44,653 nt of DNA from Gammaproteobacteria bacterium (GTDB taxonomy: Bacteria > Pseudomonadota > Gammaproteobacteria > Ga0077554 > Ga007554): NCBI GenBank assembly GCA_020053945.1, contig JAGVME010000111.1, forward strand, positions 1-44,653, in the 5' to 3' direction. The position numbers and the translations under genes are program-made. The notes under the pieces were generated by a model. That model ran no database searches and was not told where the DNA came from. It was given only the letters and a program-made list of their open reading frames with translations. This document shows, in pieces, positions 12,452 to 37,135 of the stretch (within the stretch, counting starts at the first letter, position 1; each line of letters starts with the position of its first letter).

Positions 12452-12485
12452 GCGTCATCTTCCTGTAACAGGCTTCGTTTAGATT
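12452..12485 (+). promoter_or_regulatory. Putative PhoB box and -10 upstream of PEP-CTERM/phoA pair
   Basis: Half-sites GCGTCAT and CTGTAAC are separated by CTTC (7-4-7 spacing), matching the CTGTCAY consensus at 5/7 and at 6/7 if A is allowed at position 5. Exactly 10 nt later comes TAGATT as a -10-like hexamer. The geometry equals that of the E. coli phoA promoter. It would drive 12552 and, through a 62-bp gap, the alkaline phosphatase. Confidence 0.55.
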
Positions 12486-12551
12486 ACCTGTCAGACCCAA
12501 ACCAGATTGGGGCGGTGGTGTCATTTCGGCAAACTCACGGGGGATTAATCC

Positions 12552-13325
12552 ATGGCATTAATTACAACAGCGACAAGAACAACTTTCACCGGTATCGGAC
12601 TGGCTTCCCTGCTCGCCACATTTGGCGCCCATGCCGGTGAGCTGATCAGCAACGGTGGCTTCGAGACAGGCGATTTCACCGATTGGAAGGTGTATGAAGC
12701 GGGCACCCTTGGCGCCGTATCCGTAGCATCGGGGTTGGTAGCGCCCAACAGCCTGAAACCGACTGTGGGGCCTGCAAGCGGGATCTATTATGCGTTGATG
12801 GACGATTCTTTCGCCAGCGCTAACGCCTTGATCCAAACCTTCAGCACTGGGCCGGTCCAATTGGCGGTCTTGTCCTTCAATATGTTCGTGAATGACCACA
12901 ACCCCAGTGGTGAAGTCTTGATTGATCCTACGGGGCTGGATGCCACTACCGGCGGTTCCTACTCCCCAAATCAACACGCGCGGGTCGACCTGCTCTCCGC
13001 ATCGGCCTCGCCCTTTGATACCGGTGCCGGTGTGCTCAAAACCTTTTATCTTGGGGGCGGTACCGGACGCCTGTTTAATAATCCATATACCGCATTCGCC
13101 GGATTCGATGTGACCGACGTGCTCGCGGCGGGCGGAACTTTCCAATTGCGCTTCGCGGAAGTGAATAATGAGGACTTCTTCAACGTGGGCGTTGACAACG
13201 TCAGCCTGCAAGTCACGCCGGTGCCGGAAGCCTCAACCTGGGCAATGATGCTGGCGGGACTGGCGCTCACTGGGCTGATAACACGCCGACGTCATCTAGG
13301 CGTGAAAAATGACATCGCACGGTAA
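12552..13325 (+). CDS. PEP-CTERM sorted exported protein
   Basis: A 257-residue protein with an N-terminal signal (FTGIGLASLLATFGAHA) and a C-terminal sorting tail: VPEASTWAMMLAGLALTG followed by RRR. In this family the tail is recognised by exosortase and the mature protein goes to the outer surface or the extracellular matrix. The mature part starts GELISNGGFETGDFTDW, the opening typical of beta-sandwich, carbohydrate-binding-like PEP-CTERM proteins, and contains no catalytic motif that I recognise. The start ATG lies 67 bp after a putative Pho promoter. It probably forms a transcription unit with the phosphatase. Confidence 0.85.
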   Translation: MALITTATRTTFTGIGLASLLATFGAHAGELISNGGFETGDFTDWKVYEAGTLGAVSVASGLVAPNSLKPTVGPASGIYYALMDDSFASANALIQTFSTGPVQLAVLSFNMFVNDHNPSGEVLIDPTGLDATTGGSYSPNQHARVDLLSASASPFDTGAGVLKTFYLGGGTGRLFNNPYTAFAGFDVTDVLAAGGTFQLRFAEVNNEDFFNVGVDNVSLQVTPVPEASTWAMMLAGLALTGLITRRRHLGVKNDIAR

Positions 13326-13387
13326 CAAGGCGCAAACGTAATCATTTAGCCATCCCCTGAATATCTACTGATAAGGAGAACACTGTC

Positions 13388-14956
13388 ATGAATAAATTCA
13401 TACTAAAACCGCTGGCGATCGTAGTGGCCGCCAGCTTTACGGCCCCCGCCCTGGCGGTGGATTCTTTCCCGCCGCCAGCGATGACGCCGCAGGACTGGTA
13501 TAACGCTGGCGCGAATGCAATAGACGATGCGAAGAAAGTGTTCCCTAATGTGCGCCGCGCCAAGAACGTGATCCTGTTTGTCGGCGACGGCATGGGCATC
13601 TCTACCGTCACTGCCGCCCGCATCCTGGCCGGCCAATTGCAAGGCAAGAGCGGCGAAGAACACCAGCTCTCCTTTGAGAAACTGCCTTATCTGGCGCTGT
13701 CCAAAACTTATAGCGTTAATCAGCAGACACCCGATTCCGCTCCCACCATGACGGCCATGGTTACCGGCGTTAAAACCAACGATGGTGTACTGGCAGTGAA
13801 TCAGAATGTCACACGTGGCAACTGTAGCCAGGTGCAGGGCAATACCCTGACGACCATTCTTGAACATGCCGAGAAAGCTGGCAAAGCCACTGGCATCGTT
13901 ACCACTGCCAGGCTTACCCATGCTACTCCAGCCGCCAATTACGCTCACTCACCCGAACGTAACTGGGAAAGCGATGCGGAAGTTTCTGCCGCGTGCGCTA
14001 GCTTTGCTGACATCGCACGTCAGCTTATCGAATTCCCCCATGGCGACGGGCTTGAAGTGGCTATGGGCGGTGGCCGCGACCGCTTTCTCCCCAAGACACT
14101 AGCCGACCATGAAGACGCAGGTAAAACAGGCCGTCGCAACGACGGACGCAACCTCACGACAGAATGGTTGGCCAATTATCCAAACGCTGCTTATGCGTGG
14201 AACAAGGCACAGTTTGACGCTATCAATCCTGCCAATACCAAACATCTACTCGCCCTGTTCGAACGCTCCCATATGGAGTATGAGCATGACCGCGCCACCG
14301 ACACCGGCGGCGAACCTTCCCTGTCCGAGATGACGGCTAAATCCATCGACATGCTGAAGCAGAATCCCAAAGGATTCTATCTGCATGTGGAAAGCGGCCG
14401 GGTCGACCACGCCCACCATGCTGGCAACGCCTCCCGTGCATTGACCGATACCATTGAACTGGCCAAGGCGGTGAAGGTGGCAATGGAAAATACCGATCCC
14501 AAGGAGACACTGATCATCATCACGGCGGATCACAGTCATGTCTTTACCATTGCTGGCTATCCGAAGCGCGGCAACAATATCCTCGGCAAGGTGGTGAGCA
14601 CCGGTAAAGCCGACGGTGATTACGCCAAAGACGCGCTGGGCTTGCCCTACACCACGTTGGGTTATACCAATGGCCCGGGATATACCGGCGCCTCCAACGC
14701 ACAGCCCGAGGGCAGCAAAACTTATCCGCATTTCCCGGCAAGCTATTCGGGAATTACGGCGGGCCGACCCAACCTGATCGCCACCGACACCACCGCCGCA
14801 GGCTACATGCAGGAATCAACGGTGCCGATGCAGTCTGAAACCCATGCCGGTGAGGATGTCGCAATCTACGCTAATGGCCCCAAGGCTTACCTGTTCCGCG
14901 GCGTCATGGAGCAGAACACCATCTTCCATGTCATGAAGGAAGCCTTCGGGTTCTGA
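13388..14956 (+). CDS. phoA: PhoA-type alkaline phosphatase
   Basis: A 522-residue exported phosphomonoesterase with signal peptide KPLAIVVAASFTAPALA. Family motifs are in order: metal-binding FVGDGMGISTVTAARI, the nucleophile in DSAPTMTAMVTG (Asp116-Ser117, equal to D101-S102 of E. coli PhoA), ESGRVDHAHHAGN, the zinc ligand motif TADHSH, and a later His in ETHAGEDV. It is about 50 residues longer than the E. coli enzyme. A good ribosome binding site (AAGGAG) precedes the ATG and a strong terminator follows the stop. It releases inorganic phosphate from organic monoesters in the periplasm or outside. No promoter of its own is visible, so the upstream Pho-box-like site probably serves it. The symbol reflects the family, not a proven orthologue. 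Confidence 0.93.
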   Translation: MNKFILKPLAIVVAASFTAPALAVDSFPPPAMTPQDWYNAGANAIDDAKKVFPNVRRAKNVILFVGDGMGISTVTAARILAGQLQGKSGEEHQLSFEKLPYLALSKTYSVNQQTPDSAPTMTAMVTGVKTNDGVLAVNQNVTRGNCSQVQGNTLTTILEHAEKAGKATGIVTTARLTHATPAANYAHSPERNWESDAEVSAACASFADIARQLIEFPHGDGLEVAMGGGRDRFLPKTLADHEDAGKTGRRNDGRNLTTEWLANYPNAAYAWNKAQFDAINPANTKHLLALFERSHMEYEHDRATDTGGEPSLSEMTAKSIDMLKQNPKGFYLHVESGRVDHAHHAGNASRALTDTIELAKAVKVAMENTDPKETLIIITADHSHVFTIAGYPKRGNNILGKVVSTGKADGDYAKDALGLPYTTLGYTNGPGYTGASNAQPEGSKTYPHFPASYSGITAGRPNLIATDTTAAGYMQESTVPMQSETHAGEDVAIYANGPKAYLFRGVMEQNTIFHVMKEAFGF

Positions 14957-15052: not shown

Positions 15053-15769
15053 ATGCGCATTAAAATGATAAGGCAGTGGCTATTAGCATTACCGGCGCTC
15101 GGATTATTATGTGGTGCGGTCCAAGCTGATCAGTCGTTGGAAGCGACCGCATGCGTCTATCTGATCGACACATCTTCCGCGCAGAAGGTGGCTGGTACCG
15201 ACGTAGAGCATCCCACCACTCCATGGTATTTCTGGCGCAGCGATAACCGCGTCGAAACCCGCGACGCGCACGGGGAAAACGGCGAAGTCTGGGGGTCGAA
15301 TCCGCGCGGCCAGATTTCCTACACCAAACTTTTTCACCCGGCCGAAAAAGCCATCGACTACACGCCCGGTGACCTGGCCGCACTGGCGATCAATGCCGAC
15401 TGGAATCAGATCAAATCCATCATCGACCCCAAATTGCTGGGCACACACCTGAAACGTAGCGGAGAACAAACCGTCAACGGCCATCGTGCCGAGCGTTATG
15501 CAGGCGCGATTGACGGCGTAACCACCGAGGTCTTATGGTTACCGGAAATGAAATTGCCAGCGCGCATCGAGAAGACCCGGGGCGGGGTTACGGTGAGCCT
15601 GCGCATGGCGGAATGCAAACCCCTGGCGTCAGCCCCCTGGGCCATGACATCCGAGACCCGCATGCAATCCTATCAGCACCTTGACTATGCTGATCTCGGT
15701 GACATGGAAAACGATCCCTTCGTGAAAAATGTCATTGGCCACAACGAAGGAGCGCATCACGGACATTGA
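15053..15769 (+). CDS. Unknown periplasmic protein
   Basis: A 238-residue protein with signal peptide (WLLALPALGLLCGAVQA). I do not recognise the family. The mature part holds two Cys, a Trp/Tyr-rich beta-type pattern (TTPWYFWRSDNRVETRD, YTKLFHPAEKAIDY) and a His-rich C-terminus (GHNEGAHHGH) that could bind metal. The repeated R-V-E and LPARIEKT patterns are vaguely like LolA-type lipid-carrier folds, but this is a guess. It stands alone between the phoA terminator and the nuclease gene. Codons 126-157 were duplicated as a fragment at 19348-19441, so the locus has recombined. Confidence 0.75.
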   Translation: MRIKMIRQWLLALPALGLLCGAVQADQSLEATACVYLIDTSSAQKVAGTDVEHPTTPWYFWRSDNRVETRDAHGENGEVWGSNPRGQISYTKLFHPAEKAIDYTPGDLAALAINADWNQIKSIIDPKLLGTHLKRSGEQTVNGHRAERYAGAIDGVTTEVLWLPEMKLPARIEKTRGGVTVSLRMAECKPLASAPWAMTSETRMQSYQHLDYADLGDMENDPFVKNVIGHNEGAHHGH

Positions 15770-15955: not shown

Positions 15956-18766
15956 ATGTCGACCCGCGCCGCTATTCCCCGTTTATCTGTTATCGCCTGG
16001 TTTGCATTAGGTTTCACCATCAGCAGCAGTACGGTAAGTGCCGCGCCCAGCGAATTGTTTTTTTCCGAATACATTGAAGGCAGCTCCAACAATAAAGCGC
16101 TGGAGATTTTCAACGGCACGGGCGTGGCAGTAGATTTGGCGGCGGGCAATTACGTGGTTCAGATGTTTTTTAATGGCAGCACGACACCCAGCTTAACTCT
16201 TACGCTCACCGGCACCGTTGCCAATGGCGATGTCTTTGTGCTCGCGCAGAGTAATGCAGGCGCCACTATTATCGCCCAGGCTGACCAGGCTAGCAGTTCC
16301 AATTTTTACAACGGTGACGATGCGATAGTTTTACGCAAGGGCGGAGCAAGTGGTGCGATTGTGGATTCGATCGGTCAGATCGGCATCGATCCCGGCACAG
16401 AATGGGGCACGGGGCTGGCCAGCACTGCCGATAATACCTTGCGCCGCAAAACCACTGTCAGCCAAGGCGATATCACGGCCAACGATCCCTTCGATCCGGC
16501 GACGGAATGGGATGGATTCGCCAACGATACTTTTGATGGACTCGGCAGCCATACGACCGGCAACGGTGGCGGCACGGGCGGCGCGTGCAACGATTCCTTT
16601 ACACCCATCTATGCCATTCAGGGCAGCGGACCGATGGCCGCCATTACCGGCACAGTCAGCACCCAAGGCGTGGTGGTAGGTGATTACGAAGGCGCCGCGC
16701 CTGCTTTGCGTGGTTTCTATATTCAAGACACAGTCGGTGATGGTAATGCGGCCACTTCCGATGGTATTTTCGTGTTCAACACCAACACTAATAGCATTAA
16801 CGTCGGCGATGTGGTGCGTGTGACAGGTACCGCGAGTGAATTCCAGAACCAGACCCAAATCAGCGCCACTAATATTGCCGTGTGTGGTAGGGCTTCGGTG
16901 CCTCCCGTTGACGTCAACCTGCCTTTCGCAAGCAGCGATTTCCTGGAGCGCTACGAAGGCATGCTGGTGCGCCTGCCGCAGACTTTATACGTCACTGAAC
17001 ATTTTCAACTGGGGCGCTTTGGCCAACTGGTGCTATCTTCTCAAAAGCGCCTGGCACAACCCACCAATGTCGCACAACCCGGTGCGGCGGCGCTGGCGTT
17101 GCAGGCTGCCAATGATCTTAACCGCATCATCGTCGACGATGAATTGAATAACCAAAATCCCGACCCGATCCGATTTGGCCGCGGTGGTGACCCGCTGAGC
17201 GCGAGCAATACCCTACGCGGTGGAGATACGGCAACCGGTATCGTCGGTGTCATGACCTACAGTTGGGCTGGAAATAGCGCGAGCGGCAATGCTTACCGTG
17301 TGCGTCCCTTCAACCGCTTGGCTACCAATGCCACTAACTTCAGCGCGGGCAATGCGCGACCAGTAGCGACCCCCAACGTCGGCGGCCGCTTGAAGGTCGG
17401 TAGTTTTAATGTTCTGAACTACTTCCTCACGCTGGATAATGGTGCGGCGAATTGTGGCCCGGCCAGCAACAAGCAAACCTGCCGTGGCGCGCAGACGGCA
17501 GTGGAATTGCAGCGGCAACAGGACAAGTTGATTCCGGCCATCGTCAAACTGGACGCGGACATTCTCGGCTTGGTCGAATTGGAAAATAGCCACAACACCA
17601 GCGGTGTGGATGCAAAACCGCAGGCCGACATTGTTGACCGCCTCAACACCGTTCTTGGTAGTGCGGTTTACGGTTACGTCGATAGCGGTATTATCGGTAC
17701 CGATGCGATCCGTGTAGGGTTGATTTACAAACCCGGCAAAGTGCGTCCCGTAGGTGCTTTCAGCATTCTCGATTCTGCCGATGACACACGCTTTATCGAC
17801 ACTAAAAATCGACCGGTACTCGCCCAAACCTTTGAAGAAGTTGCGACCGGCGCCAAGTTCACGGTGGCGGTAAACCATCTCAAGTCAAAAGGTTCGGCGT
17901 GCACCGATGTGGGTGATGCGGATGCCGGTGATGGACAGGGCAATTGTAACGGAACCCGCACCCAGGCGGCTGCGGCGCTCATCGATTGGCTGGCAGGTGA
18001 CCCAACAGGCAGCGGTGACCCGGACTATCTGATTATCGGCGATCTTAATTCCTACGCGAAGGAAGACCCGATCACCACGTTGCTCAATGCGGGTTACACC
18101 AACTTGCTTGATTCCTTCATCGGCGCGGACGCTTATGGCTACGTGTTTAACGGCCAGTGGGGCTACCTTGATCATGCGTTGGCATCGCCCACGCTGTTGG
18201 TACAGGTCACCGGCGCAATGGAATATCACATCAACGCGGATGAGCCAAGCGCACTCGACTACAACACCAACTTCAAGAGCGCGGGTCAGCTCACCAGCCT
18301 GTATGCGGCAGACGAGTATCGTACCTCGGATCACGATCCACTGGTGATCGGCCTGAATCTGACACTGGCTGCACCGAACGGTATCAATGGCACTGCGGCC
18401 CGGGATACCTTGATCGGCACCCGTGGCAACGATGCGATCACCGGTTTTGCCGGACGTGATACCTTGACGGGTGGTGCGGGTCGGGATCAGTTCATTTACA
18501 CCAGCATGTTGGATGCCAGTGATACGATCACCGACTTCCAGCCTGGCCAGGATCGCATTGTCTTGACCCGCTTGCTGCAAAGTCTGGGTGTTAGTAGCTC
18601 TAATCCGCTCGCAGATGGTTTTGTGACTTGCAGCCCTTCAGGTAGCGGCAGCATCATCAATATTGATCCGGATGGCGGCACCGGTGCCGCACCCGCACGT
18701 GCATTGGTGCAGATCAAAGGTGTGGGCTGCGGCAACTTCACCAGCATTGATAACTTCACGTTCTAA
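15956..18766 (+). CDS. ExeM/NucH-type extracellular nuclease with RTX tail
   Basis: A 936-residue secreted nuclease. After a signal-like N-terminus (VIAWFALGFTISSSTVSA) comes a lamin-tail domain (LFFSEYIEGSSNNKALEIFNG), then an OB-fold-like region (about 210-330). An endonuclease/exonuclease/phosphatase domain follows (about 475-800) with VGSFNVLNYF, ILGLVELENS (metal Glu), VNHLKSKG, IIGDLNSYAKEDP and TSDHDPLVIGL (catalytic Asp-His). The C-terminus has RTX-like nonapeptides (GTRGNDAITGFAGRD, LTGGAGRDQF) and a domain like type I secretion targets. Having both a Sec signal and an RTX tail is unusual. Family members degrade extracellular DNA, giving phosphate and nucleosides. Ribosome binding site AAAGGAG lies before the ATG. 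Confidence 0.92.
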   Translation: MSTRAAIPRLSVIAWFALGFTISSSTVSAAPSELFFSEYIEGSSNNKALEIFNGTGVAVDLAAGNYVVQMFFNGSTTPSLTLTLTGTVANGDVFVLAQSNAGATIIAQADQASSSNFYNGDDAIVLRKGGASGAIVDSIGQIGIDPGTEWGTGLASTADNTLRRKTTVSQGDITANDPFDPATEWDGFANDTFDGLGSHTTGNGGGTGGACNDSFTPIYAIQGSGPMAAITGTVSTQGVVVGDYEGAAPALRGFYIQDTVGDGNAATSDGIFVFNTNTNSINVGDVVRVTGTASEFQNQTQISATNIAVCGRASVPPVDVNLPFASSDFLERYEGMLVRLPQTLYVTEHFQLGRFGQLVLSSQKRLAQPTNVAQPGAAALALQAANDLNRIIVDDELNNQNPDPIRFGRGGDPLSASNTLRGGDTATGIVGVMTYSWAGNSASGNAYRVRPFNRLATNATNFSAGNARPVATPNVGGRLKVGSFNVLNYFLTLDNGAANCGPASNKQTCRGAQTAVELQRQQDKLIPAIVKLDADILGLVELENSHNTSGVDAKPQADIVDRLNTVLGSAVYGYVDSGIIGTDAIRVGLIYKPGKVRPVGAFSILDSADDTRFIDTKNRPVLAQTFEEVATGAKFTVAVNHLKSKGSACTDVGDADAGDGQGNCNGTRTQAAAALIDWLAGDPTGSGDPDYLIIGDLNSYAKEDPITTLLNAGYTNLLDSFIGADAYGYVFNGQWGYLDHALASPTLLVQVTGAMEYHINADEPSALDYNTNFKSAGQLTSLYAADEYRTSDHDPLVIGLNLTLAAPNGINGTAARDTLIGTRGNDAITGFAGRDTLTGGAGRDQFIYTSMLDASDTITDFQPGQDRIVLTRLLQSLGVSSSNPLADGFVTCSPSGSGSIINIDPDGGTGAAPARALVQIKGVGCGNFTSIDNFTF

Positions 18767-19663: not shown

Positions 19664-19697
19664 CTGTCGCTTTCCTGTAACACTACTCAATTATAGT
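19664..19697 (+). promoter_or_regulatory. Putative PhoB-dependent promoter
   Basis: Half-sites CTGTCGC and CTGTAAC are spaced by TTTC, followed by exactly 10 nt and then TATAGT at 19692-19697. TATAGT is also the -10 of E. coli phoA, at the same distance. It lies 36 bp before a small ORF with an excellent ribosome binding site. This is the best -10 of the set. Confidence 0.65.
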
Positions 19698-19733: not shown

Positions 19734-19904
19734 ATGGAAAGCATACCTTTGCATGCAGGCATGTCCGATGAGTACTTTGACGACAGGCCTTATGATCATA
19801 TGGAAGACGATGACGTTGAAAATGAAGTCGAGATTTGGCTGGACGAAGACCTGTGCATCTACCTGAGGGGCGATGGGACGGTCACGCAGTATTTCGTGCA
19901 TTAA
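19734..19904 (+). CDS. 56-residue acidic small protein
   Basis: The ATG at 19734 follows a strong ribosome binding site (GAAGGAGG, 7-nt spacing). The product begins MESIPLHAGMSDEYF and has 17 Asp/Glu against 2 Arg, with a DDRPYDHMEDDD cluster and a C-terminal hydrophobic pattern EIWLDEDLCIYLRGDG. No signal peptide or membrane segment is seen, so it should be cytoplasmic. I do not recognise a family. The promoter geometry suggests phosphate-starvation induction. It could be a small regulator, metal buffer or antitoxin-like protein, with no evidence to choose between these. Confidence 0.65.
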   Translation: MESIPLHAGMSDEYFDDRPYDHMEDDDVENEVEIWLDEDLCIYLRGDGTVTQYFVH

Positions 19905-19948: not shown

Positions 19949-19993
19949 ATTTCATGTAACTGACACACAAACGTAACACAACTTTGTGATGAT
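19949..19993 (+). promoter_or_regulatory. Putative triple-half-site PhoB box and -10
   Basis: Three 7-mers in an 11-bp rhythm are seen: ATTTCAT (19949), CTGACAC (19960) and ACGTAAC (19971), with spacers GTAA and ACAA. Ten nt after the last one is GATGAT (19988-19993), 4/6 to TATAAT. It would serve the 46-aa ORF and perhaps the PEP-CTERM gene at 20347. Confidence 0.5.
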
Positions 19994-20346: not shown

Positions 20347-21282
20347 ATGAAATTGAAACCAAATCACTTCAAAGGACCAATACAAATGAAGCTTAAACTT
20401 GCCGCGCTGGCCACCATGATGGCCGTCTCCGCACCATCGTTCGCCCTTATTGAGGGCGCCACTTCTGGCAACGGCAGCCTGTTGCTTAACTTTATTACCC
20501 CCGGTGCCACCTCCACAAACGGCATGTCCGCCGCTTTCGATCTGGGCGTCAATCTGAATGATGTGTTGGCGTGGAACGGTATTGCCGGTTTTACCCAAAC
20601 CTGGAGCCTGACTGCCGCCAACTATGGTTCCGCCTGGAGCGATCTGCTGGGATTCTCTAGCAACGATAACGATGCGGACATCCAGTTCAACGTAATTGCG
20701 CTGGATAACACGAACAAAACTACTGTAAACAACGGTTCGCGTTACCTGACCACCGCTGATGTGGCCAAGTATCCCAGCTTGAACAACGGCAATCTGAGTG
20801 CCTTTGATCAAATGGATTTATACGTCAAGGCAAACAACGGCCTCGGCACACACCCCACAGAAGCCAATGGCGCCAGCACGGTAATGGCGGGGGATTTGCC
20901 GCTCAATAGCTATTTCCGTGGGATCAATGGAGTGCAGCAGGGTGACAACTGGCTGACCAAAACCTCGGCTGACACCACCAAGAACCTGACCACCGCCCAG
21001 AACTTCTGGTTCTTGGAAACCACACTGCCCGGCGGCAGCGCCCAGGCAAGCAAGACGGCTTTCGGTTTCGATATTGACGGCGACGGCCTGATTGAGATGG
21101 ATAACAACGGTGCTGCTGTTACTGGTGGTTTCTCCGAGTTCAGTGAGTGGTCGGTGAACATGGCCGACGGCACCATTACCTTCGCCACTCCGGTTCCCGA
21201 AGCCGAAACCTACGCCATGATGCTGGCGGGTCTGGGTCTGATCGGTTTTCTCGGCCGTCGCTGCAGGAACCGCGCTGCCTGA
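20347..21282 (+). CDS. PEP-CTERM exported protein
   Basis: A 311-residue protein. The ATG at 20347 has ribosome binding site TAGGGAG; an internal ATG at 20386 gives a shorter, cleaner signal peptide (MKLKLAALATMMAVSAPSFA) and may be the true start. The mature part is rich in Asn/Thr/Gly and has a short acidic FDIDGDGLIEMDNNG motif that looks like a calcium-binding EF-hand-like loop. The C-terminus is the sorting tail VPEAETYAMMLAGLGLIG then RRCRNR. No enzyme motif is seen. A terminator follows 88 bp after the stop. Confidence 0.87.
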   Translation: MKLKPNHFKGPIQMKLKLAALATMMAVSAPSFALIEGATSGNGSLLLNFITPGATSTNGMSAAFDLGVNLNDVLAWNGIAGFTQTWSLTAANYGSAWSDLLGFSSNDNDADIQFNVIALDNTNKTTVNNGSRYLTTADVAKYPSLNNGNLSAFDQMDLYVKANNGLGTHPTEANGASTVMAGDLPLNSYFRGINGVQQGDNWLTKTSADTTKNLTTAQNFWFLETTLPGGSAQASKTAFGFDIDGDGLIEMDNNGAAVTGGFSEFSEWSVNMADGTITFATPVPEAETYAMMLAGLGLIGFLGRRCRNRAA

Positions 21283-21402: not shown

Positions 21403-21438
21403 ATATCATCATTATCCATGTATGTTAGGAGATCAATC

Positions 21439-24958: not shown

Positions 24959-24963
24959 GGGAA

Positions 24964-25134: not shown

Positions 25135-25145
25135 TGGGAAGAAAA

Positions 25146-25640: not shown

Positions 25641-25724
25641 GCGGGTCAGCATAGCACGGTGTGAACTGCGTGTGTGACACCCGTTGTTGGGGATGATGCA
25701 ACGGGAAAATATCGGCAAGTGGTA

Positions 25725-25808: not shown

Positions 25809-25837
25809 ATAAGTGAGCGGCGAATGATGCGCCCCCA

Positions 25838-25871
25838 CGGTAACACAAACTTAACATAAGCATGCTAAATA
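25838..25871 (+). promoter_or_regulatory. Possible PhoB box upstream of tpsA
   Basis: CGGTAAC and ACTTAAC are spaced by ACAA; 10 nt later is TAAATA. The first half-site is good (6/7 to CTGTAAC), the second weak (4/7), the -10 weak. A start near 25878 would leave a leader of about 46 nt before the tpsA ATG and exclude the longer in-frame start at 25862. Confidence 0.4.
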
Positions 25872-28900: not shown

Positions 28901-31900
28901 GCCGCTAACCTGACGCTGATTGCCGACAGCGCTAGCTTCGGTGTTGTGAAAATCGGCGAGGGTGCGCGCATTTTGGCGGACGACGGCGCCCACGTAACAA
29001 TCACCGCGGGCAAGCGCATTGAGCTTCAGGGGCAGGTAAAAACGGCAGGGGGCAACATCAATGCCACGCTTAGCCGCCCCAACCAGGATTTCGATCCCAC
29101 CCAGACACTGTGGCTGGGGCCGCAGGCGCAGCTTGATGCCAGCGGCGCGGCACGGACATATCTGGACAGCAAGGGTAACCGGATAGGCGAAGTGCTGGGC
29201 GGCGGCACAGTCAATCTCAATGCCGGCAGGGGGTTCATCGTGACCGCTGCGGGCGCGACGATCGAAGCGAACGGCGTAGCACCAGTACGGCTTGATGTGC
29301 CAAACGAGGCGGGCGGTTTAGGGCGCATGGTCGGTAGCGATGCTGGCACCATCAGCATCGCCGCGCGCGAAGGGGTGGTGCTCGACGGCACGTTGTCGGC
29401 GCAGGCAGGAAGTGCTGGGCAACGCGGTGGCACGTTCATGCTGAGCCTCGGCGATGACGACACGCTACCGGGGACAGGTTATCCGACAAATGAGCGGATC
29501 ATAAGCCTGGCTCCGGTCACGGTGGTTCAGGGAGGCGAGCTTGAGCCCGGCGCGGCGGTTCCGTCCGCTTTCAATGGACAGGCCCGGCTGGGCGCCGATG
29601 CCCTGGAGACCGCCGGGTTCGAGCGCATTGTGCTGAAAAGCCGTGACGTTGTCCGCTTGGAAGATGGACTCGATCTTGGCGCTGGGTGGAGCGTGCCGTT
29701 GCGCGAAATCCAGCTCGATGCGCCGCGCCTCGAAACCGCAGGCGGTGCCGCGAGCCTCATCGCACATATGATCCGTCTCGGCAATTACGATAGCGGGCGC
29801 CAGGATGTTGTGAACACCCCCACGACGGGAACCGGCACGTTCAAGGCTAATGCGCAATTGCTGGAGCTGGCAGGCAATCAGACCTTGACGGGAATGGCGC
29901 GTACCGAGTTAACCGGCACACAGGAGATTCGCCTGAGGGGGATTAGCACCCCGACCAACGCGCGGCCTGCCGGGGCGCTCAAGAGCGCCGCCGATCTTGC
30001 GCTGCATGGCGCGCTTATCGCGCCTTCCACCTACAGCCTGTACACACTGGATGCGGCGGGGCGAACCATCGAGTTCACGCGCAATGCGCGGGTACCGGTG
30101 CAGCCGCTATCGGCGCTGGGCAACCTGACAGCCAAGGCGGAGGATATCGTGCAGGACGGCAATTTGTGGGCGCCGTTCGGACAGATCGACTTGCAGGCGA
30201 GCAACAGCCTGGTATTCAAAGACGGTAGCCTGACTTCGGTTGCCGCCGCGCCGGGGAACCTGATACCGTTTGGCAAAGTCGTGAACGGACGCGCCTGGAT
30301 AATGGACGTGGACGGTTCCAAGATTGAAATTAAAACCTTGCCGGAAAAATCGATCCGCATGGAAGCCGCCAGCATCGACATGCAGGCAGGCGCGAAGCTC
30401 GATCTCGCGGGTGGCGGCGACTTGCAGGCCTATGAATTCACCGTGGGGCCGGGTGGCTCGCGCGACATTCTCACTGACAAGAACACCTACGCTATCCTGC
30501 CCGGTTACGCGAGTGGGTTTGCCCCCAGCGACGCGCAGGAAAGTTTCGAGCGTTCGGGTGGCGATGCCGTCTACCTATCCGGCGTACCAGGTCTGGCTGA
30601 CGGCGTTTATACCCTGCTGCCCGCGCACTATGCCCTGCTGCCGGGTGCGTATGCGGTCAAGCTCGACACGGGTATCCAGGACCTGTTGCCCGGCCAGGCC
30701 TACAGCCGCCAGGATGGCGTTCGCGTCGCCGCCGGGTATGTGACCGACAGCCGCGCCAACGCGCCGCGTGACGCTGGCTGGCAGGGTATCCAGGTATTGA
30801 CCCGTGATCAGGTGCGGGCGCGTTCCGAGATTACGTTGACCCACGCCTCGGAGTTTTTTGCCGAGGGTAAGAACCGGCCCCAGGACGCTGGCCTGTTGTC
30901 GATCGTCACTACCGGCACCGGTAGCGATAGCCTGAAACTCGACGCGGTCTACAAGCTTGACGCGGGCAGCGGCGGGCGCGGCGCGGCGGTGGACATCAGC
31001 GCGTTGAAGCTGGCGATTACCAGTGGCGCCCCGTCGGGTATTGACTCGGATGTGACGCAGATCGACGTGGACAAGCTTAACGCGCTGGGCGCGGAGAGCC
31101 TGTTTATCGGCGGTACGCGCAGCGTCGGCAGCGATGCCACTACGCTCGCAGTCGGCGCGGATAGCGTCATGCTCGCCAATAATGCCGATCATGCTTTGCA
31201 AGCCCCTGAGGTCATTCTTGCCGCCAAAGATACGCTCACGCTCAAGTCCGGTAGCCTGATCGACGCGCAAGGCCCGGCTCAGGCTGAGGCCGATGATGCA
31301 GTGCGCTATGAGAGCGCAGGCGAGGGCGCGCTGGTACGCGCGGCCGCCACCCCGGCGAGCTTTACCCGCACCGCTAGTCCCCCCGGTATATTAATTACCC
31401 GAGGCACGCTTGTCGGCGAAGCGGGCAGCAAGGTGATCGCCGCCGATGCGATCACGCTCGACGCGACCCGGGACAACGCATTCAAAGGCGTGGTCGAGTT
31501 TAATAAAGAGGGCGCGGCGGTTGCGGGCAATCTGGCCGTGGGCGCAACGCGCATCAATTTCGGCGCGGCGCCCACAGGCAGCGAGGGCATTACCTACAGC
31601 CAGGCCGGCCTGGATGCGTTGAACAGCCTGGAAAGCATGGTGCTGACCAGTTACAGTACGTTCGATCTGTACGGCGATGTTAACGTGGGCGGGGTGGATA
31701 TCAACGGCAAACCCACGCTGCAAAATTTGACCCTGCAGGGTGCCGGATTGGCTGGCTTCAATAATAGTGGCCAGACGGCCAACCTGCGCGCGCAAAATCT
31801 CATGCTCGCCAATCCGGCTGCGGCAGCCTACACCCTGGCACCGGGTGGCGCGCCCGGTGATGGCACGCTCGCTATCCTCGCCGACACGCTTACCTTGGGT

Positions 31901-34900
31901 GAAGGCGACAAGGCAATTCAAGGTTATGGCAATGTAACCATCACCGCCAATGAAATGCTGGGCGAAGGCGTTGGCAAAACCAATATTGCCGCATCCACTA
32001 TGCTCAATGTCGCACGGATTAGCGGAGAACGCGGCGCCAACCAAACTTTGACCGCGAACGGTGCCTTAACGGCGACAAAACACATCGCCGACCGCGCGCT
32101 GGCGCCCGTGAACGCGCTGGGCGCGCGCTGGGCGTTGGCCGGTACAAGCGTCGACTTCAATACCCAGGCTGTATTGCCCTCCGGCCAATTCAAACTCACC
32201 GCCACCGGCGGCGACGTGACGCTGGGCGCTGATGCTCGCGTAGACGTGGCGGGTCGTTCCGTACAATTTTTCGACGTAAGCCGCCCGACATGGGGCGGCA
32301 CCGCCAAGTTCGTGAGTGAGACCGGCAATGTGACATTTGCCGCAGGATCAAAGGTTGATGTCTCCGCCGCGCCCGGCAGTGACGCGGGTAAACTCATTGT
32401 GCACGCCGCTCACGGCACGGCCACGCTCGCCGACGGCAGCGTGCAAGGCAATGCGTTGCCGGATGCGGAGGGCAACCGTGGCGACGGCGCGCGCTTTGAC
32501 CTCGATGTAAACACGCTGGCAAGTTTTTCTGCGCTCAACACGGTGCTCAATCAGGGGGAGTTCGATGGCGCGAGAAGCGTGCGCGTGCGCACGGGCGATT
32601 TGAATGTGGCCGCATCGGACAGCGTCAAGGCCCATGACATCAAACTTGCCGCAGATAGCGGCGCGTTGACGGTGCAGGGTGAACTCAACGCAGACGGGCG
32701 CGAAGGCGGAAGCATCCAGCTCTATAGCGGCGGCCGTCTCACGCTGGCAGACGGCGCCAAACTCTCCGCCCGCGCCTTGCAGGCGGGACGTGATGGCGGC
32801 ACCGTGACGCTGGGCAGCACGGACGAAGACACCGTACTCGCGGGCGGCAGCATTGACACCGCCGGTGCGGCCGGGGGGCAGGACGGCACGGTGCTGATCC
32901 GCGCCAGCCGCACCGACGACACCGCATTCACTCATCTTTATGCGCCGCTTCCCGATACCGGCACGGCCAATAACTACAAAGTCAGCCTGAAGGGGGTAAC
33001 GGCCGCGTCATCACTGCTCAGGGGCTTAGTCGTCTCTTTCGTACCCAAATTTACCAATAAGGCTTCCAGCAAACTGAGCATTAATAACACGGCTGCCAAG
33101 GATATTTGGTACAACGGCGCCGTTGTAAAGGCTGACCGAATCAAGGCTAACGAGACCGTTTACATGGTTTATGACGGCACCCGCTTCAACATCGTTGACG
33201 CGCCATTTGCCAATCGCACGGCAAGCGCAGTACCCGGAACATCAACCAGTTCACGTACCACGACGACCTACGTGGTCAGCCAGCCCGGCTTCATCAGCTA
33301 CAAGCCCGGCCAGACTGTGGTGTACACGCCCGATGCAGACAACACCGCAACCATAAACAAGCTCAACGTTAACGGCTTGGGCGCCAAAGACATCAAGTAC
33401 AACAACGTGAACCTGGCGGCGGGATTTTTGAAGGCGGGCGAACCGGTCTACCTTGTCTATGACGGAACAGCGTTTCAAGTGGCGCTGGAGGCAAACACTC
33501 CCCGCGCCGTGGGGACGGCCACAGCGCTGGCGGTGACCGCGACACGTGAGTTAAGCGCCGGTGATTCCTACGCCTTCGTGGCGGGCGCTAACAGTGACGC
33601 GGGCGGCACCACCCTGACCCTCAATGGCGTGACCGCTCCGCTACTGAAAAACGGCGCCGATCTGGCGGCCGCCGACATCAAAAGCAACAACCTGGTTTAT
33701 GTCACTTACGATGGCGCGGCCTTTCACTTGCTGACAGAGCTTGCCGCGAAAGTGGATGTTGGCCAAGGGGTGCGGGTGACTTCGGTGGCGGGCGACTACA
33801 CCAAAGCCATCGGTACCTCTATCACAGGCGCGTCCAGCATCGTGGTGGAGGCGGTCCGTACTTATGACGCGCTCACCGTCAATGGCGGCGGTGTGCTTGA
33901 CGCCAACCGCTTGAGCGCCGATGCCTACCGCTACTTGCCCAAGGCGGAGCGTGATAATGTCAAGGCAACGCTGGTGGGCGCCACCCCGGCTTTCGACGCA
34001 ACGAAATTCCATCTCCGGCCTGGAACCGAAATTCAGTACACAGGCAATATCGCGATGCTGAGGGATATCAATCTCGCCGACTATCGCTACGGCGGTGAGC
34101 CAGGGGTGCTGACGGTGCGCGCCGCAGGTAATCTCGATATCCAGGGCAACCTGTCGGATGGTTTCAATGTGGCGACCTCTGCTTACGACCACGACAATAA
34201 GATCGCGACCGCCTTGGTTCCCGCCGATCTGCTGGGCGGCGAGTCGTGGTCATACCGCCTGATTGCGGGCGCTGACCACGCCGCCGCCGATCCATTGGCG
34301 GTAAGGGCGGATGTGGGAGATGTGACGCTAGCGGCAGGCAAGCTGATACGCACCGGCACTGGCGATATCTACATCGCTTCAGGCAAAGACATCAAGCTCG
34401 CCGACAACAAGGCCGCGATTTATACTGCGGGTCGTCTCGCCGACCCGCAGAGCGGCTTTACCGCGCCAACCAATATAAGTAACTCGCTGAATTTTGCCCA
34501 ATTCAGCCAGAACGGCGGCAATGTTAGCCTCACTGCGCTGAACGACATCGTCGGCAAGCCATCGGCGCAGCTCTATTCTAACTGGCTGTTCCGCCAGGGT
34601 AAGGTGGATGCGGCTACCGGGCAATACACGCTCCAGCCGGCTTGGTGGGTGCGTTTCGACCAGTTTCAGCAGGGTATTGGTGCGCTGGGTGGCGGCGATG
34701 TAAGCATGAACGCGAGCGGCAAAATCGAGAATGTCTCCGCCAGCACACCGACCCAGGCGCGCATGGCTGCTACCGCGCCGGATGCCAGCCAACTGGTGAC
34801 GACGGGCGGCGGTGACGTGCGGGTGGAAACCGGCGGGGATTTACTGGGTGGTCAGTATTATGCTGACCTTGGTGAATTTGTCATCAAGTCCGGCGGTACG

Positions 34901-36976
34901 ATTGCGAGTGGCCAAGGTGTCGGAAGCGGCGCGTCGGCCAAACCGCTCTACACGATTTTGGCGCTGGGCGACGTGCAGGCGCAGGTGCAGGCGCAAGGCG
35001 AACTCGATATCCACGCCCTTATCAATCCGCATCTGGTGGTGCAGTCGTCCGGTGCGGGCGCGAATGTCAATGTCGGAAATCCAGGCAGCGCGCTCTGGAG
35101 TCTATTTTCGACCTACGGCGAAGACAGCGCGGCGTCTCTGCTCAGCTTGGGCGGCGCAGTGAATTTCCGCAACGCGCCGGGCGGTTCGCAGACGCTTGCC
35201 TCAATTCCGAACGTCTACAAACCCCCGCTCAACTTTAGTTTCAACTCGTCCCTCGGGGCATTGGTATTGTTACCGGCAAACCTGAATCTGGTCTCGTTCC
35301 AGGATGATGTGCTATTTGGGGGCTCGTCAGCCGTCATGCGTCCGGCGGCGCGCGGGGACCTGAATCTGTTGGCCGCAGGCACGGTCAGTCTGTCGGTTTC
35401 ACTGAACCTGACAGATATGGCGCCGATGCCGGACGCCATCTGGCTGGCAAGCAACACAAACGGGTTTTCACCGGCACCCTTACATTCAGGAGATTTCAAG
35501 CCTGCTGTAGTATATGCGGTTGCGGGCGATGTCGCCGGTGTGGGCAACAAACTGAATTTGACACTGGCCAAGGCCGTGAATGTGCGGGCGGGGCGGGATG
35601 TGATCGACCTTGGCATCAGCGCCCAGCATCCGAACGCGGATGATGTCAGCCGCGTAGAAGCCGGGCGGGATGTCCTTTATTCCACTAGCACGGGCCGAAA
35701 TAGCGGGTCTTATATCTGGGTCGCGGGTTCGGGGCGGCTTGAAGTGGTCGCTGGCCGCAATATTGATCTAGGGACATCGGCGGGTATCGTGAGCCGCGGC
35801 AATCTTGATAACCCGGCGCTTCCCGTGGGCGGCGCCGATATTCATGTGGCGGCGGGTGTGGGCGCAGGCGGGATCGATTATCAGGGCGCAGTGAACCGGC
35901 TGATTGCCAAACTGGAGGCCGGAACACCAGATGACGCCACGCTGTGGCAGGGACGCTGGCTCACTGGCGATATATCGTTGAGCGCCGCTGACGTGCTGAC
36001 GCGGGTCATTGAAAAAGTAGGTACACAAGATGCCAATACCCAGCGCGCGCGGGTGCGCGATATGCTGTTCACCGCGTTGCGCACCACAGGCCGCGATTTC
36101 AACGACCCTGCCAGCCCGTTTGCGGGCGACTACGCGCGGGGTTATGCCGCGCTGGAAACGGTTTTCCCGGGAATCAGGGAGCAGGAGGCGGAGGGTACCT
36201 TCAAAAACTACCAAGGTGACATCAATCTGTTTGCCAGCCGCATCATCACTGAGCGCGGCGGTGATATTGAATTCATCACGCCGGGCGGGCAGGTTGTCGT
36301 GGGTCTGGGCAACACCCCCGCCGCGTTGCTCCAGACCGAAGTGCCTGGGTCGGGTATCGGGCTTAAGGACAGCGGCGTACTCGGCATGGCGACGGTTGCC
36401 GACGGTAGCATTCGTGGGATTGCGCGTGGCGACATTCTGGTGAACCAGTCACGTATCCTTACCGTGGGCGGTGGTGATGTGCTGCTGTGGTCGAGCGAAG
36501 GCGACATCGACGCGGGCAAGGGCAAGAAAACGGCGACGTCGGTGCCGCCGCCGCTGACCCTGATCGACAGTCAGGGCAACGTCACCCAAGTGTTACAGGG
36601 CGCAGCATCGGGTAGCGGCATTGGCGCGCTCATCCCGGTGGGAGGCCGCGCGGGCGACGTCGACTTGATCGCCCCCACGGGCACGGTCAACGCAGGCGAC
36701 GCCGGTATCCGCGCAGGCAACCTCAACATCGCCGCGCAGGTGGTGCTGGGGGCGGACAACATTTCTGTTTCGGGCACCGCCACTGGCACCCCGGTGGCGG
36801 ATACCCGCGCGGTTACCGCGACGTCTTCCGGGGCGGTGACGGCGGGGGATGATGTCTCCAAAACTACCGCCGCATTATCGCAAAACCTGGCCGATGCCAC
36901 CCGCGCGGCCGAGCAATTGAAGCAAGCCTTCAAGCCCTCGTTTGTGAGCGTGGAAGTGGTCGGGTTTGGTGAATGA
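25925..36976 (+). CDS. Giant TpsA filamentous-haemagglutinin-family exoprotein (3683 aa)
   Basis: The ATG at 25925 has ribosome binding site AGGAGA and begins an extended signal peptide: MNRNCYRLVFNPTLGMMVPA, a basic stretch, then a hydrophobic core of Ala/Gly/Val. Next is the TPS secretion domain (about residues 60-300) with NWQSFNVSPGHDVQF, SIISGSI-like VIAGSISQAAGQ and NSNGIAFMGGSQVNL. Residues about 300-3000 are beta-helix-type repeats rich in Gly/Asp/Ala. Residues about 2347-2604 differ and resemble phage tail-fibre repeats. Near the C-terminus (about 3100-3600) is a DUF3739-like region with MRPAARGDLNLLAAGTVSLS, and the end SFVSVEVVGFGE is typical. It is secreted by the TpsB encoded upstream. 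Ligand or target unknown. Confidence 0.93.
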   Translation: MNRNCYRLVFNPTLGMMVPAPETARSRGKSGQGKVAGGAALALAGAVLAGAVSPNMAQAELPVPSAGGAIPGFVSAGQAAYQVNGTQALINQVGDKSILNWQSFNVSPGHDVQFRQVDGLATNNLVPGANFTSLNRIWDLNPSVIAGSISQAAGQQANVILVNSNGIAFMGGSQVNLSSFTASSLDIADKFVLDSFLTNNSLTPQFEGTGGFIKVFEGAKITAGSFGRVMLIAPTVVNKGMVEAPDGQVIAAAGTKVFLRLAAGQGQGDLGHNVRGLLVEVDSPDGLADFETANTTVKDGVLDGQVVNLAHAVEDKLGHVTNLGALSTPRGNVTMIGYAVNQHGIARATTSVVANGSVYLLAKDEAVSSTAEAARRGGLVILGAGSVTEVLPYVADAARAQDGRTGGAGLEKASQVWALGQDIRMEGGAVIDAPAGEVNFIAVENPGDLATPSTNPFKTVTVNAPASGTARIHIADGARINVAGLENVQVSAARNSVEVELRGDELKDSPVNQQGPLRGQKVYVDINQALANANSGKSTLITKDSLESYQARLERTVAERSTAGGAVNIRSQGEAILESGAVIDLSGGSVQYTPATVKTTLLTSGGKNVDISDADAETRYDGIATRYVKDYGRWNVKEVIDLGQSFRYDPGYVEGKDAGTLNVIGIKAVQLQADLQGKTVTGELQREAGIQPKGASLTLGSDTVPSDYKLNQRIVIGAATPAEIHALALNPTLFSEDKIANLQIFSNQAAEVREALRLPQGGSVAITAKGVAVNADVETMAGAISFKARDNSVDQVTVPLDVTVADGVTLSARGAWANDLPSAPGHSGEAARVNGGSVSLSAADVVLGTGTLIDVTGGGRVKPDGKVMVGNGGDVVLEAGMVGASLASVRLGGEVRGHALGKGGTFTLNSGKIQIGGVADPAALNLEADFVAQGGFANFNLTGRDGVTVADGVTLTPRVESLELQPGYGLQATGSRIENFSRTLVRDDRTREAANLTLIADSASFGVVKIGEGARILADDGAHVTITAGKRIELQGQVKTAGGNINATLSRPNQDFDPTQTLWLGPQAQLDASGAARTYLDSKGNRIGEVLGGGTVNLNAGRGFIVTAAGATIEANGVAPVRLDVPNEAGGLGRMVGSDAGTISIAAREGVVLDGTLSAQAGSAGQRGGTFMLSLGDDDTLPGTGYPTNERIISLAPVTVVQGGELEPGAAVPSAFNGQARLGADALETAGFERIVLKSRDVVRLEDGLDLGAGWSVPLREIQLDAPRLETAGGAASLIAHMIRLGNYDSGRQDVVNTPTTGTGTFKANAQLLELAGNQTLTGMARTELTGTQEIRLRGISTPTNARPAGALKSAADLALHGALIAPSTYSLYTLDAAGRTIEFTRNARVPVQPLSALGNLTAKAEDIVQDGNLWAPFGQIDLQASNSLVFKDGSLTSVAAAPGNLIPFGKVVNGRAWIMDVDGSKIEIKTLPEKSIRMEAASIDMQAGAKLDLAGGGDLQAYEFTVGPGGSRDILTDKNTYAILPGYASGFAPSDAQESFERSGGDAVYLSGVPGLADGVYTLLPAHYALLPGAYAVKLDTGIQDLLPGQAYSRQDGVRVAAGYVTDSRANAPRDAGWQGIQVLTRDQVRARSEITLTHASEFFAEGKNRPQDAGLLSIVTTGTGSDSLKLDAVYKLDAGSGGRGAAVDISALKLAITSGAPSGIDSDVTQIDVDKLNALGAESLFIGGTRSVGSDATTLAVGADSVMLANNADHALQAPEVILAAKDTLTLKSGSLIDAQGPAQAEADDAVRYESAGEGALVRAAATPASFTRTASPPGILITRGTLVGEAGSKVIAADAITLDATRDNAFKGVVEFNKEGAAVAGNLAVGATRINFGAAPTGSEGITYSQAGLDALNSLESMVLTSYSTFDLYGDVNVGGVDINGKPTLQNLTLQGAGLAGFNNSGQTANLRAQNLMLANPAAAAYTLAPGGAPGDGTLAILADTLTLGEGDKAIQGYGNVTITANEMLGEGVGKTNIAASTMLNVARISGERGANQTLTANGALTATKHIADRALAPVNALGARWALAGTSVDFNTQAVLPSGQFKLTATGGDVTLGADARVDVAGRSVQFFDVSRPTWGGTAKFVSETGNVTFAAGSKVDVSAAPGSDAGKLIVHAAHGTATLADGSVQGNALPDAEGNRGDGARFDLDVNTLASFSALNTVLNQGEFDGARSVRVRTGDLNVAASDSVKAHDIKLAADSGALTVQGELNADGREGGSIQLYSGGRLTLADGAKLSARALQAGRDGGTVTLGSTDEDTVLAGGSIDTAGAAGGQDGTVLIRASRTDDTAFTHLYAPLPDTGTANNYKVSLKGVTAASSLLRGLVVSFVPKFTNKASSKLSINNTAAKDIWYNGAVVKADRIKANETVYMVYDGTRFNIVDAPFANRTASAVPGTSTSSRTTTTYVVSQPGFISYKPGQTVVYTPDADNTATINKLNVNGLGAKDIKYNNVNLAAGFLKAGEPVYLVYDGTAFQVALEANTPRAVGTATALAVTATRELSAGDSYAFVAGANSDAGGTTLTLNGVTAPLLKNGADLAAADIKSNNLVYVTYDGAAFHLLTELAAKVDVGQGVRVTSVAGDYTKAIGTSITGASSIVVEAVRTYDALTVNGGGVLDANRLSADAYRYLPKAERDNVKATLVGATPAFDATKFHLRPGTEIQYTGNIAMLRDINLADYRYGGEPGVLTVRAAGNLDIQGNLSDGFNVATSAYDHDNKIATALVPADLLGGESWSYRLIAGADHAAADPLAVRADVGDVTLAAGKLIRTGTGDIYIASGKDIKLADNKAAIYTAGRLADPQSGFTAPTNISNSLNFAQFSQNGGNVSLTALNDIVGKPSAQLYSNWLFRQGKVDAATGQYTLQPAWWVRFDQFQQGIGALGGGDVSMNASGKIENVSASTPTQARMAATAPDASQLVTTGGGDVRVETGGDLLGGQYYADLGEFVIKSGGTIASGQGVGSGASAKPLYTILALGDVQAQVQAQGELDIHALINPHLVVQSSGAGANVNVGNPGSALWSLFSTYGEDSAASLLSLGGAVNFRNAPGGSQTLASIPNVYKPPLNFSFNSSLGALVLLPANLNLVSFQDDVLFGGSSAVMRPAARGDLNLLAAGTVSLSVSLNLTDMAPMPDAIWLASNTNGFSPAPLHSGDFKPAVVYAVAGDVAGVGNKLNLTLAKAVNVRAGRDVIDLGISAQHPNADDVSRVEAGRDVLYSTSTGRNSGSYIWVAGSGRLEVVAGRNIDLGTSAGIVSRGNLDNPALPVGGADIHVAAGVGAGGIDYQGAVNRLIAKLEAGTPDDATLWQGRWLTGDISLSAADVLTRVIEKVGTQDANTQRARVRDMLFTALRTTGRDFNDPASPFAGDYARGYAALETVFPGIREQEAEGTFKNYQGDINLFASRIITERGGDIEFITPGGQVVVGLGNTPAALLQTEVPGSGIGLKDSGVLGMATVADGSIRGIARGDILVNQSRILTVGGGDVLLWSSEGDIDAGKGKKTATSVPPPLTLIDSQGNVTQVLQGAASGSGIGALIPVGGRAGDVDLIAPTGTVNAGDAGIRAGNLNIAAQVVLGADNISVSGTATGTPVADTRAVTATSSGAVTAGDDVSKTTAALSQNLADATRAAEQLKQAFKPSFVSVEVVGFGE
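32965..33735 (+). repeat. Three phage-tail-fibre-like protein repeats inside tpsA
   Basis: Three units follow the pattern L-x-[IVL]-N-x ... K-x-I-x-x-N ... x-A-x-x-[IL]-K-A/S-x-x-x-V-Y-x-V/T-Y-D-G-x-x-F. Examples are SINNTAAKDIWYNGAVVKAD then VYMVYDGTRF; NVNGLGAKDIKYNNVNLAAG then VYLVYDGTAF; TLNGVTAPLLKNGADLAAAD then VYVTYDGAAF. Such NGLGAK...VYDGTxFQL repeats are known from phage tail fibres. DNA here is slightly richer in A/T than its surroundings. Confidence 0.75.
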
Positions 36977-36994
36977 TTTCCGGGCGCCTGAAAA

Positions 36995-37065
36995 GACGTA
37001 GGGCGGGAACACTTTCCCGCCGAATCAGCTAGGGAAGCGTCGGCAAGGTATTGCCGACCTACGGG
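36995..37065. repeat. REP pair after tpsA
   Basis: A class A copy is at 36995-37022 and a class B copy at 37037-37065, with the same order and flanks as elsewhere. It begins 19 bp after the tpsA stop and could stabilise or terminate the transcript. Confidence 0.9.
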
Positions 37066-37090
37066 ATGGGAGGAGTTACGGTTTTCGGCT

Positions 37091-37135
37091 TCGTCATGAT
37101 TTCGTCACGGTTTTGTCACACATGTGCCGTACACT
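37091..37135 (+). promoter_or_regulatory. Putative triple PhoB box and -10 for the exbB-tonB-porin operon
   Basis: Three half-sites in an 11-bp rhythm, TCGTCAT, TCGTCAC and TTGTCAC, have 4-nt spacers GATT and GGTT. Ten nt after the third is TACACT (37130-37135). This is the clearest Pho-box array in the window. The start point would fall about 210 bp before the exbB ATG, inside a long palindrome. Confidence 0.65.

Follow-up and report, generated by a model that had tools for sequence, protein, structure and literature searches.

In this study we analysed a 44,653-nt contig (JAGVME010000111.1, hereafter the window) of a gammaproteobacterial genome (assembly GCA_020053945.1; G000; 2.14 Mb, 155 contigs, 85.6% complete), for which a preliminary description had proposed five promoters of the phosphate-starvation regulator PhoB. 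Four of these very likely represent PhoB promoters of the ordinary type. These precede a phoA-type alkaline phosphatase locus, a 56-amino-acid (56-aa) open reading frame (ORF), a gene pair for a PEP-CTERM protein and a PstS-like protein, and an exbB-exbD-tonB-porin operon. The remaining site, at 25838 before the exoprotein gene tpsA, is indistinguishable from chance and is to be dropped. Based on layout and conservation, we hold with considerable confidence that the four sites would be classical class-II PhoB/sigma-70 promoters forming a phosphate-scavenging surface programme, and the phosphate-scavenging and surface-protein genes of the stretch are probably induced together on phosphate depletion. 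As a whole, the earlier five-promoter observation was mostly right. The sites, with half-sites, spacer lengths in nucleotides, -10-like hexamers and ranks in the matrix scan described below, are as follows.

12452..12485, forward strand: PhoB-type promoter 1, GCGTCAT-4-CTGTAAC-10-TAGATT (rank 1)
19664..19697, forward strand: PhoB-type promoter 2, CTGTCGC-4-CTGTAAC-10-TATAGT (rank 2)
19960..19993, forward strand: PhoB-type promoter 3, CTGACAC-4-ACGTAAC-10-GATGAT (rank 3)
25838..25871, forward strand: claimed promoter 4 (tpsA), CGGTAAC-4-ACTTAAC-10-TAAATA (not supported)
37091..37135, forward strand: PhoB-type promoter 5, three half-sites (37091, 37102, 37113), 10 nt, TACACT (rank 4, for the pair starting at 37102)

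Four sites match the genome's own pho promoters

Direct reading of the sequence recovered all five strings that had been reported, and the layout of two 7-nt half-sites, a 4-nt spacer, 10 nt and a hexamer could be read at every site once registers were corrected. Positions 12452, 19664 and 25838 stood as given; 19949 and 37091 had to be shifted by 11 nt, to 19960 and 37102. Further half-site-like repeats lie upstream of promoter 3, 19949 being one repeat further up, and at site 5 the 10-nt gap to TACACT counts from the pair that begins at 37102.

The genome encodes phoB, phoR and a PstS-family gene next to each other on contig C130, each above its curated cut-off (PhoB, TIGR02154, 345.5 bits, cut-off 296.2; PhoR, TIGR02966, 429.7 bits, cut-off 334.2), with the PhoU gene on a different contig. 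A heuristic scan identified TTGTCAC-4-CTGTAAC-10-TGTAAT as the phoB promoter and ATGTCAT-4-TTGTCAT-4-TTGTCAT-10-GATAGT as that of pstS. Both share the geometry of the window sites, that is, two 7-nt half-sites with an 11-nt period, 10 nt and a -10 hexamer, and the 10-nt gap was observed in these two promoters and in all five window sites. Escherichia coli phoA-type promoters consist of two direct 7-nt repeats at an 11-nt period, followed by the -10 about 10 nt on. The window sites have the same direct-repeat layout and -10 distance, and differ in their diverged half-sites (GCGTCAT, CTGACAC, TCGTCAC) and in the three repeats of site 5.

To train a PhoB matrix, with the spacer excluded, we used 16 pstS/phoB promoters, 2 of this genome and 14 of relatives, corresponding to 15 of the 26 pstS loci fetched from the class plus the genome's own phoB. 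Training left out L083, L088, L089, L091 and L090 (a fragment of the L086 gene), as well as L092, L093, L099, L102, L104 and L105, in which the best half-site pair was weak or no -10 stood at 10 nt. This hand selection partly favoured the layout; an unselected rerun comprised 26 promoters (25 pstS loci and phoB, with only L090 omitted). We scanned both window strands (89,238 positions) and took the chance level from 40 simulated windows of the same nearest-neighbour composition.

The first four ranks went to 12452 (score 23.2), 19664 (20.4), 19960 (17.6) and 37102 (16.0), for which 0.000, 0.000, 0.050 and 0.125 equal or better scores, respectively, are expected by chance per window. None of these scores was reached in 80 scans of intergenic composition, and the same four sites remained at ranks 1 to 4 when the genome's own two promoters were removed from training. 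Under the unselected matrix they ranked 1, 3, 5 and 2, with rank 4 taken by 19949, the other register of site 3. Scored on the box alone, without the -10, they ranked 1, 6, 5 and 4 (1, 9, 11 and 5 under the unselected matrix), and 25838 ranked 28, not beyond chance. Much of the discrimination comes from the box and the -10 combined. The preliminary description had named as a test a PhoB matrix built on the pst operon of the organism itself; in the broader form used here, with own and related pstS/phoB promoters, the four top positions of the window were all among the five reported sites, and 25838 scored at chance level.

Counterparts of the sites in related genomes

12552..13325, forward strand: PEP-CTERM protein gene (Pfam PEP-CTERM), between the phoA promoter/leader and phoA
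13388..14956, forward strand: alkaline phosphatase, phoA type (PF00245, E 1.3e-129)
15053..15769, forward strand: conserved gene without known domain, with a homologue after phoA in 7 of 7 loci compared (L165-L171)

The phoA gene is 86% identical in G003, G005 and G006, which belong to the same family, and in all three of the same-family loci found the same box is located 100-101 nt before the phoA start codon (scores 9.2, 17.0 and 19.3). The box-to-start distance in the window is likewise 100-101 nt, measured to the PEP-CTERM gene, and the phoA leader of the three relatives aligns end to end with the window leader up to the start of that gene. Because of this distance there is no room for a PEP-CTERM gene in the family loci; the window PEP-CTERM gene occupies the relatives' phoA position, with phoA after it, and thus promoter 1, to judge from the alignment, is the ancestral phoA promoter. 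In G003 and G006, phoA and the two-partner secretion (TPS) block are on separate contigs. A 90-bp segment at 19349-19438 is an 88% identical copy of part of gene 15053-15769, probably a decayed duplicate.

19734..19904, forward strand: 56-aa acidic ORF behind promoter 2
20347..21282, forward strand: PEP-CTERM protein gene (Pfam PEP-CTERM, E 9.8e-8)
21418..22983, forward strand: relative of PstS-like phosphate-binding proteins (profile against PDB and fold search)

A counterpart of promoter 2 was found in G001, of the same genus, at L031:726 (CTGTCGT-4-CTGTAAC-10-TATAGT, score 20.2), where it precedes a 74% identical 56-aa ORF; tblastn gave no match to this ORF in the L033 and L035 stretches. 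Immediately upstream of promoter 2 is an inverted repeat (19538-19601) with 29-nt arms that are 93% complementary.

Site 3 has aligned counterparts in G001, G003 and G006 (L031:2021, L033:1636 and, on the minus strand, L035:2579), with ACGTAAC or GCGTAAT as half-site and GACGAT or GATTAT as hexamer. Those in L031 and L035 stand 158 and 228 nt before the homologous PEP-CTERM gene. The downstream genes had been assigned correctly in the preliminary description, except that site 3 is unlikely to act on the second small ORF (20050-20190); relatives keep the PEP-CTERM gene (20347 here) after the site. The probable targets of promoter 3 are this gene and the PstS-like gene. The product of the latter matched no Pfam or NCBIfam family, including PBP_like_2/PstS. 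A nine-sequence profile run against PDB retrieved seven chains, mostly PstS or phosphate-binding proteins (E 1e-4 to 0.087). Foldseek placed phosphate-binding proteins on top (best E 3.5e-7) and LysR-type effector domains lower in the list, from a low-confidence model (pLDDT 47.6) that was used solely alongside the profile matches. Homologues of this gene had no box in 8 loci (best score 3.4).

37134..37301, forward strand: 168-bp near-perfect palindromic repeat with CTAG ends, overlapping the last two bases of the promoter 5 -10 and filling the leader
37350..39122, forward strand: ExbB with N-terminal DUF2341 and lectin-like LamG
39125..39544, forward strand: ExbD
39694..40350, forward strand: TonB
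40378..41949, forward strand: Porin_5 outer-membrane protein (PF16930, E 1.3e-162)
42165..42839, forward strand: conserved, probably coiled-coil protein after the porin (homologues in 19 loci)

Of 8 genomes in the order, 5 yielded an ExbB match, as did 17 of 274 in the class (both counts including this genome), and the gene order exbB-exbD-tonB-porin-follower is repeated in most of the longer relatives' loci. Homologues of 42165-42839 also stand after the porin, and this protein gave weak SMC-like matches only. We compared 40 exbB upstream regions (the window and 39 others), having dropped L136 as a copy of L071; L049 (G110), L053/L057 (G076) and L055 (second copy of G156) are not in the set. 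The loci are not independent, as L061/L072, L131/L133, L062/L076, L033/L035 and four Zoogloeaceae-type loci are close relatives. Scores of at least 10 were observed in 24 of the 40 on the sense strand versus 0 of 40 on the antisense strand, the sense strand outscored the antisense in 31, and the observed mean was reached by none of 200 column-permuted matrices. Most boxes scoring at least 8 (17 of 27) begin 62-96 nt before the gene. In the window the box lies 248 nt from exbB with the palindrome and 84 nt without it, which is inside the relatives' range.

Matches to the palindrome occur in all 8 genomes of the order, and the element resembles a miniature inverted-repeat transposable element, with many copies in some genomes (match counts take each copy on both strands). 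Full-length copies were found in G002 and G004-G007, up to 93-94% identical in G004 and G006, with shorter matches in G001 and G003 and a single full-length copy in this genome. The element gives the leader a predicted RNA hairpin, the fold of 37136-37352 having an energy of -89.2 kcal/mol (z -11.05). Between exbD and tonB there is an inverted repeat (39530-39682) with 43-nt arms, 81% complementary.

Chance matches and the site before tpsA

Several observations weigh against this reading of the sites. The site at 25838, claimed as PhoB promoter of tpsA, scored 2.0 and ranked 48 of 89,238, with 31.6 such scores expected per window; it ranked 45 without the genome's own training promoters (27 expected by chance) and 47 with the unselected set. 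Genome-wide, the strict pattern CTGTMAY-4-CTGTMAY had no matches, and a looser pattern had 22, among them phoB, pstS and two window sites, versus 15 in a backward control. Three of the looser matches lie within open frames (L112, 22.6; L109, 22.4; L127, 17.3). Because these in-frame matches, at 17-23, score as high as the window sites, a score without conservation is no proof of a site. The counterparts of site 3 scored just 7.8, 8.1 and 6.0 and were the best, second-best and third-best match of their respective intervals. Taken over the whole class, phoA upstream regions scored at least 10 in just 8 of 23 cases, versus 1 of 23 on the reverse strand (23 of 25 loci, leaving out the window's own, L164, and L178, which has no upstream DNA; search span 1400 nt in the three family loci and 400 nt in the others), and no box was found in the phoA region of L068, where phoA lies beside the cluster. 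Of the exbB regions, 3 had best scores of 5.7-7.0 and 10 of 40 fell below 0, namely four Zoogloeaceae-type loci, two from Verrucomicrobia, Desulfurivibrio, Bradyrhizobium, L134 and L135. The unselected matrix separated the exbB strands less sharply (sense versus antisense, 28 versus 4 of 40 at threshold 8 and 31 versus 15 at threshold 4). Finally, a terminator-like 11-pair hairpin followed by a T run (TTTTCTTTTT) at 23038-23064, between the PstS-like gene and tpsB, places the reach of promoter 3 to tpsB in doubt; this signal is weak, as 8 such hairpins were found versus 7.6 expected in shuffles.

The mild genome-wide enrichment and the high-scoring in-frame matches are what one would expect if the sites had arisen by chance, as matches to a short degenerate motif in AT-rich DNA between genes. 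At 25838 this explanation is true, in keeping with the earlier caution that some sites might be chance matches. It is improbable for the set, given that the other four are the best of all positions scanned, with at most 0.125 expected per window and none in the intergenic-composition scans, and that relatives carry counterparts ahead of the same genes, with the spacing conserved.

A predicted PhoB/sigma-70 mechanism

From the layout and known PhoB biology we infer that low phosphate would lead to PhoR-PhoB phosphorylation, and that phospho-PhoB would occupy the two direct half-sites (three at 37091) in place of a -35 element, recruiting sigma-70 polymerase to the -10 hexamer 10 nt downstream. 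In class-II PhoB promoters the box takes the place of the -35, according to the available part of one study (PMC4971064). Promoter 1 would then drive the PEP-CTERM gene and phoA, promoter 2 the 56-aa protein, promoter 3 the PEP-CTERM and PstS-like genes, possibly reading on into tpsB and tpsA, and promoter 5 exbB-exbD-tonB-porin.

PhoB-bound boxes could also be transcribed with an extracytoplasmic function (ECF) sigma factor rather than sigma-70, as in the PUMA3 system of Pseudomonas aeruginosa. There a similar gene set is under PhoB and the sigma factor VreI: in the portions available of two reports, the pdtA and phdA-pdtB-exbB2D2-tonB4-PA0696 promoters require both (PMC4971064, PMC7035377), and one of them describes binding of PhoB to the promoters of pdtA and phdA, and loss of activity when the pdtA pho box is mutated (PMC4971064). 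The PUMA3 pho box, as described in that text, sits upstream of a -35 region (PMC4971064), whereas the window boxes, like those before phoB and pstS of this genome, are separated by 10 nt from a T-ending -10-like hexamer, so that a -35 would not fit in between. We regard ECF-dependent transcription as quite unlikely, slightly more so than a chance origin.

Similar half-sites serve other OmpR/PhoB-family regulators, and the boxes might belong to one of these with a similar direct-repeat site; two more near-full-length PhoB-like matches in the genome, below the cut-off (C43, C39), would fit such a case. Against this, the matrix derives from pstS/phoB promoters, and the genes behind the boxes encode a phosphatase, a PstS-like protein and a PF16930 porin. 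Phosphate-binding proteins and PF16930 porins respond to phosphate in Pseudomonas, as far as the available text reports (PMC5082522). Control by another regulator therefore appears the least probable of the alternatives, and PhoB/sigma-70 promoters remain the preferred explanation.

The tpsB/tpsA pair and other candidate boxes

15956..18766, forward strand: secreted ExeM/NucH-family endonuclease with RTX repeats (NF033681, E 1e-186)
23249..24958, forward strand: TpsB transporter (POTRA_2, ShlB)
25146..25838, reverse strand: gene for a transposase associated with repetitive extragenic palindromic (REP) elements, tyrosine type (NF047646), between tpsB and tpsA
25925..36976, forward strand: TpsA, filamentous-haemagglutinin-like exoprotein (ESPR, TPS, DUF3739)

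In the window, no box specific to the tpsB/tpsA pair is supported. Among tpsA upstream regions, none of 15 reached a score of 8 and the mean sense score was below that of the reverse strand; 4 of 16 tpsB regions reached 10 (1 on the reverse strand), with L141 dropped from these sets as a duplicate of the L140 locus. About 20 bp lie between the two genes in G113, and in the window they are separated by an insertion with the transposase gene. REP-like repeats (GTCGGCAA..TTGCCGAC and GGCGGGAA..TTCCCGCC) accompany the transposase gene and also occur before tpsB and exbB.

Candidate boxes for phoA itself (13309), the PstS-like gene (21336) and the porin follower (42041) fell within 0.78-5.9 chance matches per window (0.08-0.38 counting intergenic DNA only), and that of the nuclease (15895) was weak (4.0-5.9 per window, 0.25-0.38 in intergenic DNA alone); all four are neither shown nor excluded. 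The proposal of a single phosphate-starvation programme is upheld for phoA, the 56-aa ORF, the PEP-CTERM/PstS-like pair and the exbB operon, and the nuclease, tpsB and tpsA could be added by inference only.

Ancestry of the block

Pfam/NCBIfam searches identified three PEP-CTERM proteins among the window genes, and Rfam gave no match at the gathering threshold. In the ExbB tree (40 rows) the window protein grouped with G113 and Rhodoferax, and in the TpsB tree (16 rows) it again grouped with G113. The G113 grouping had 100/100 support in both trees, and the genome's own order formed a separate clade (100/100). These trees indicate that the TPS/Exb block (23249-41949) is of other ancestry than the block of the relatives. 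Unlike this block, the 56-aa ORF and promoter 3 agree with those of the family.

Relation to known phosphate-starvation systems

The gene set represents a variation on a phosphate-starvation cluster that is already known. PUMA3 (pdtA, phdA-pdtB-exbB2-exbD2-tonB4-PA0696 and further genes) likewise combines a TPS pair, ExbB/ExbD/TonB, a putative outer-membrane porin and a secreted alkaline phosphatase under phosphate starvation, as described in the accessible text of two papers (PMC7035377, PMC4971064), one of which terms its TonB system uncharacterized (PMC7035377). The likeness is by gene set as described and not by sequence comparison with PA0693, PA0696 and PA0690. In the window the TPS pair, ExbBD/TonB and porin are present, with exbB boxed and tpsB/tpsA without a supported box. 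Differences from PUMA3 include the lack of a phdA-like match, the absence of type II secretion or vreAIR genes among the Pfam-scanned window genes (the genome was not searched for VreI), and a -10 directly following the box instead of a pho box upstream of an ECF -35. The window ExbB bears DUF2341-LamG, for which PA0693 was not checked; the function of DUF2341 on ExbB-like subunits is given as unknown in the available text of a further report (PMC12505986).

The partial text of a study of Pseudomonas phosphate-stress exoproteins offers a second comparison (PMC5082522). There, a PF16930 porin was expressed upon phosphate depletion in two strains and was missing from the exoproteome when phoBR was mutated in P. 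putida BIRD-1, and a phosphate-binding protein (Psp) was secreted with a large adhesin-like exoprotein (FhaB-like). The window has a corresponding trio of PstS-like protein, FhaB-like exoprotein and PF16930 porin, in which the likeness to Psp would be one of protein type. Among the literature matches listed, none described a PhoB box upstream of this exbB in bacteria other than Pseudomonas.

One speculative extension, which we consider rather unlikely, is a PhoB-controlled outer-membrane machine, scattered across Beta- and Gammaproteobacteria, that would constitute a TonB-powered route of phosphorus uptake. In it the lectin-like ExbB with ExbD-TonB would energise the Porin_5 barrel, and the barrel would cooperate with the TPS exoprotein and the PstS-like protein in capturing polymers that contain phosphorus, for example extracellular DNA. 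The loci with exbB-exbD-tonB-porin and its follower span Beta- and Gammaproteobacteria to Verrucomicrobia, and the PhoB box before exbB in most of the loci examined suggests that the system is used during phosphate starvation. Such use makes the question of its substrate testable, with phosphorus compounds as the candidates. The window further represents a case of a regulon assembled piecemeal, with a PEP-CTERM gene behind an old phoA promoter and a TPS/Exb block of different ancestry.

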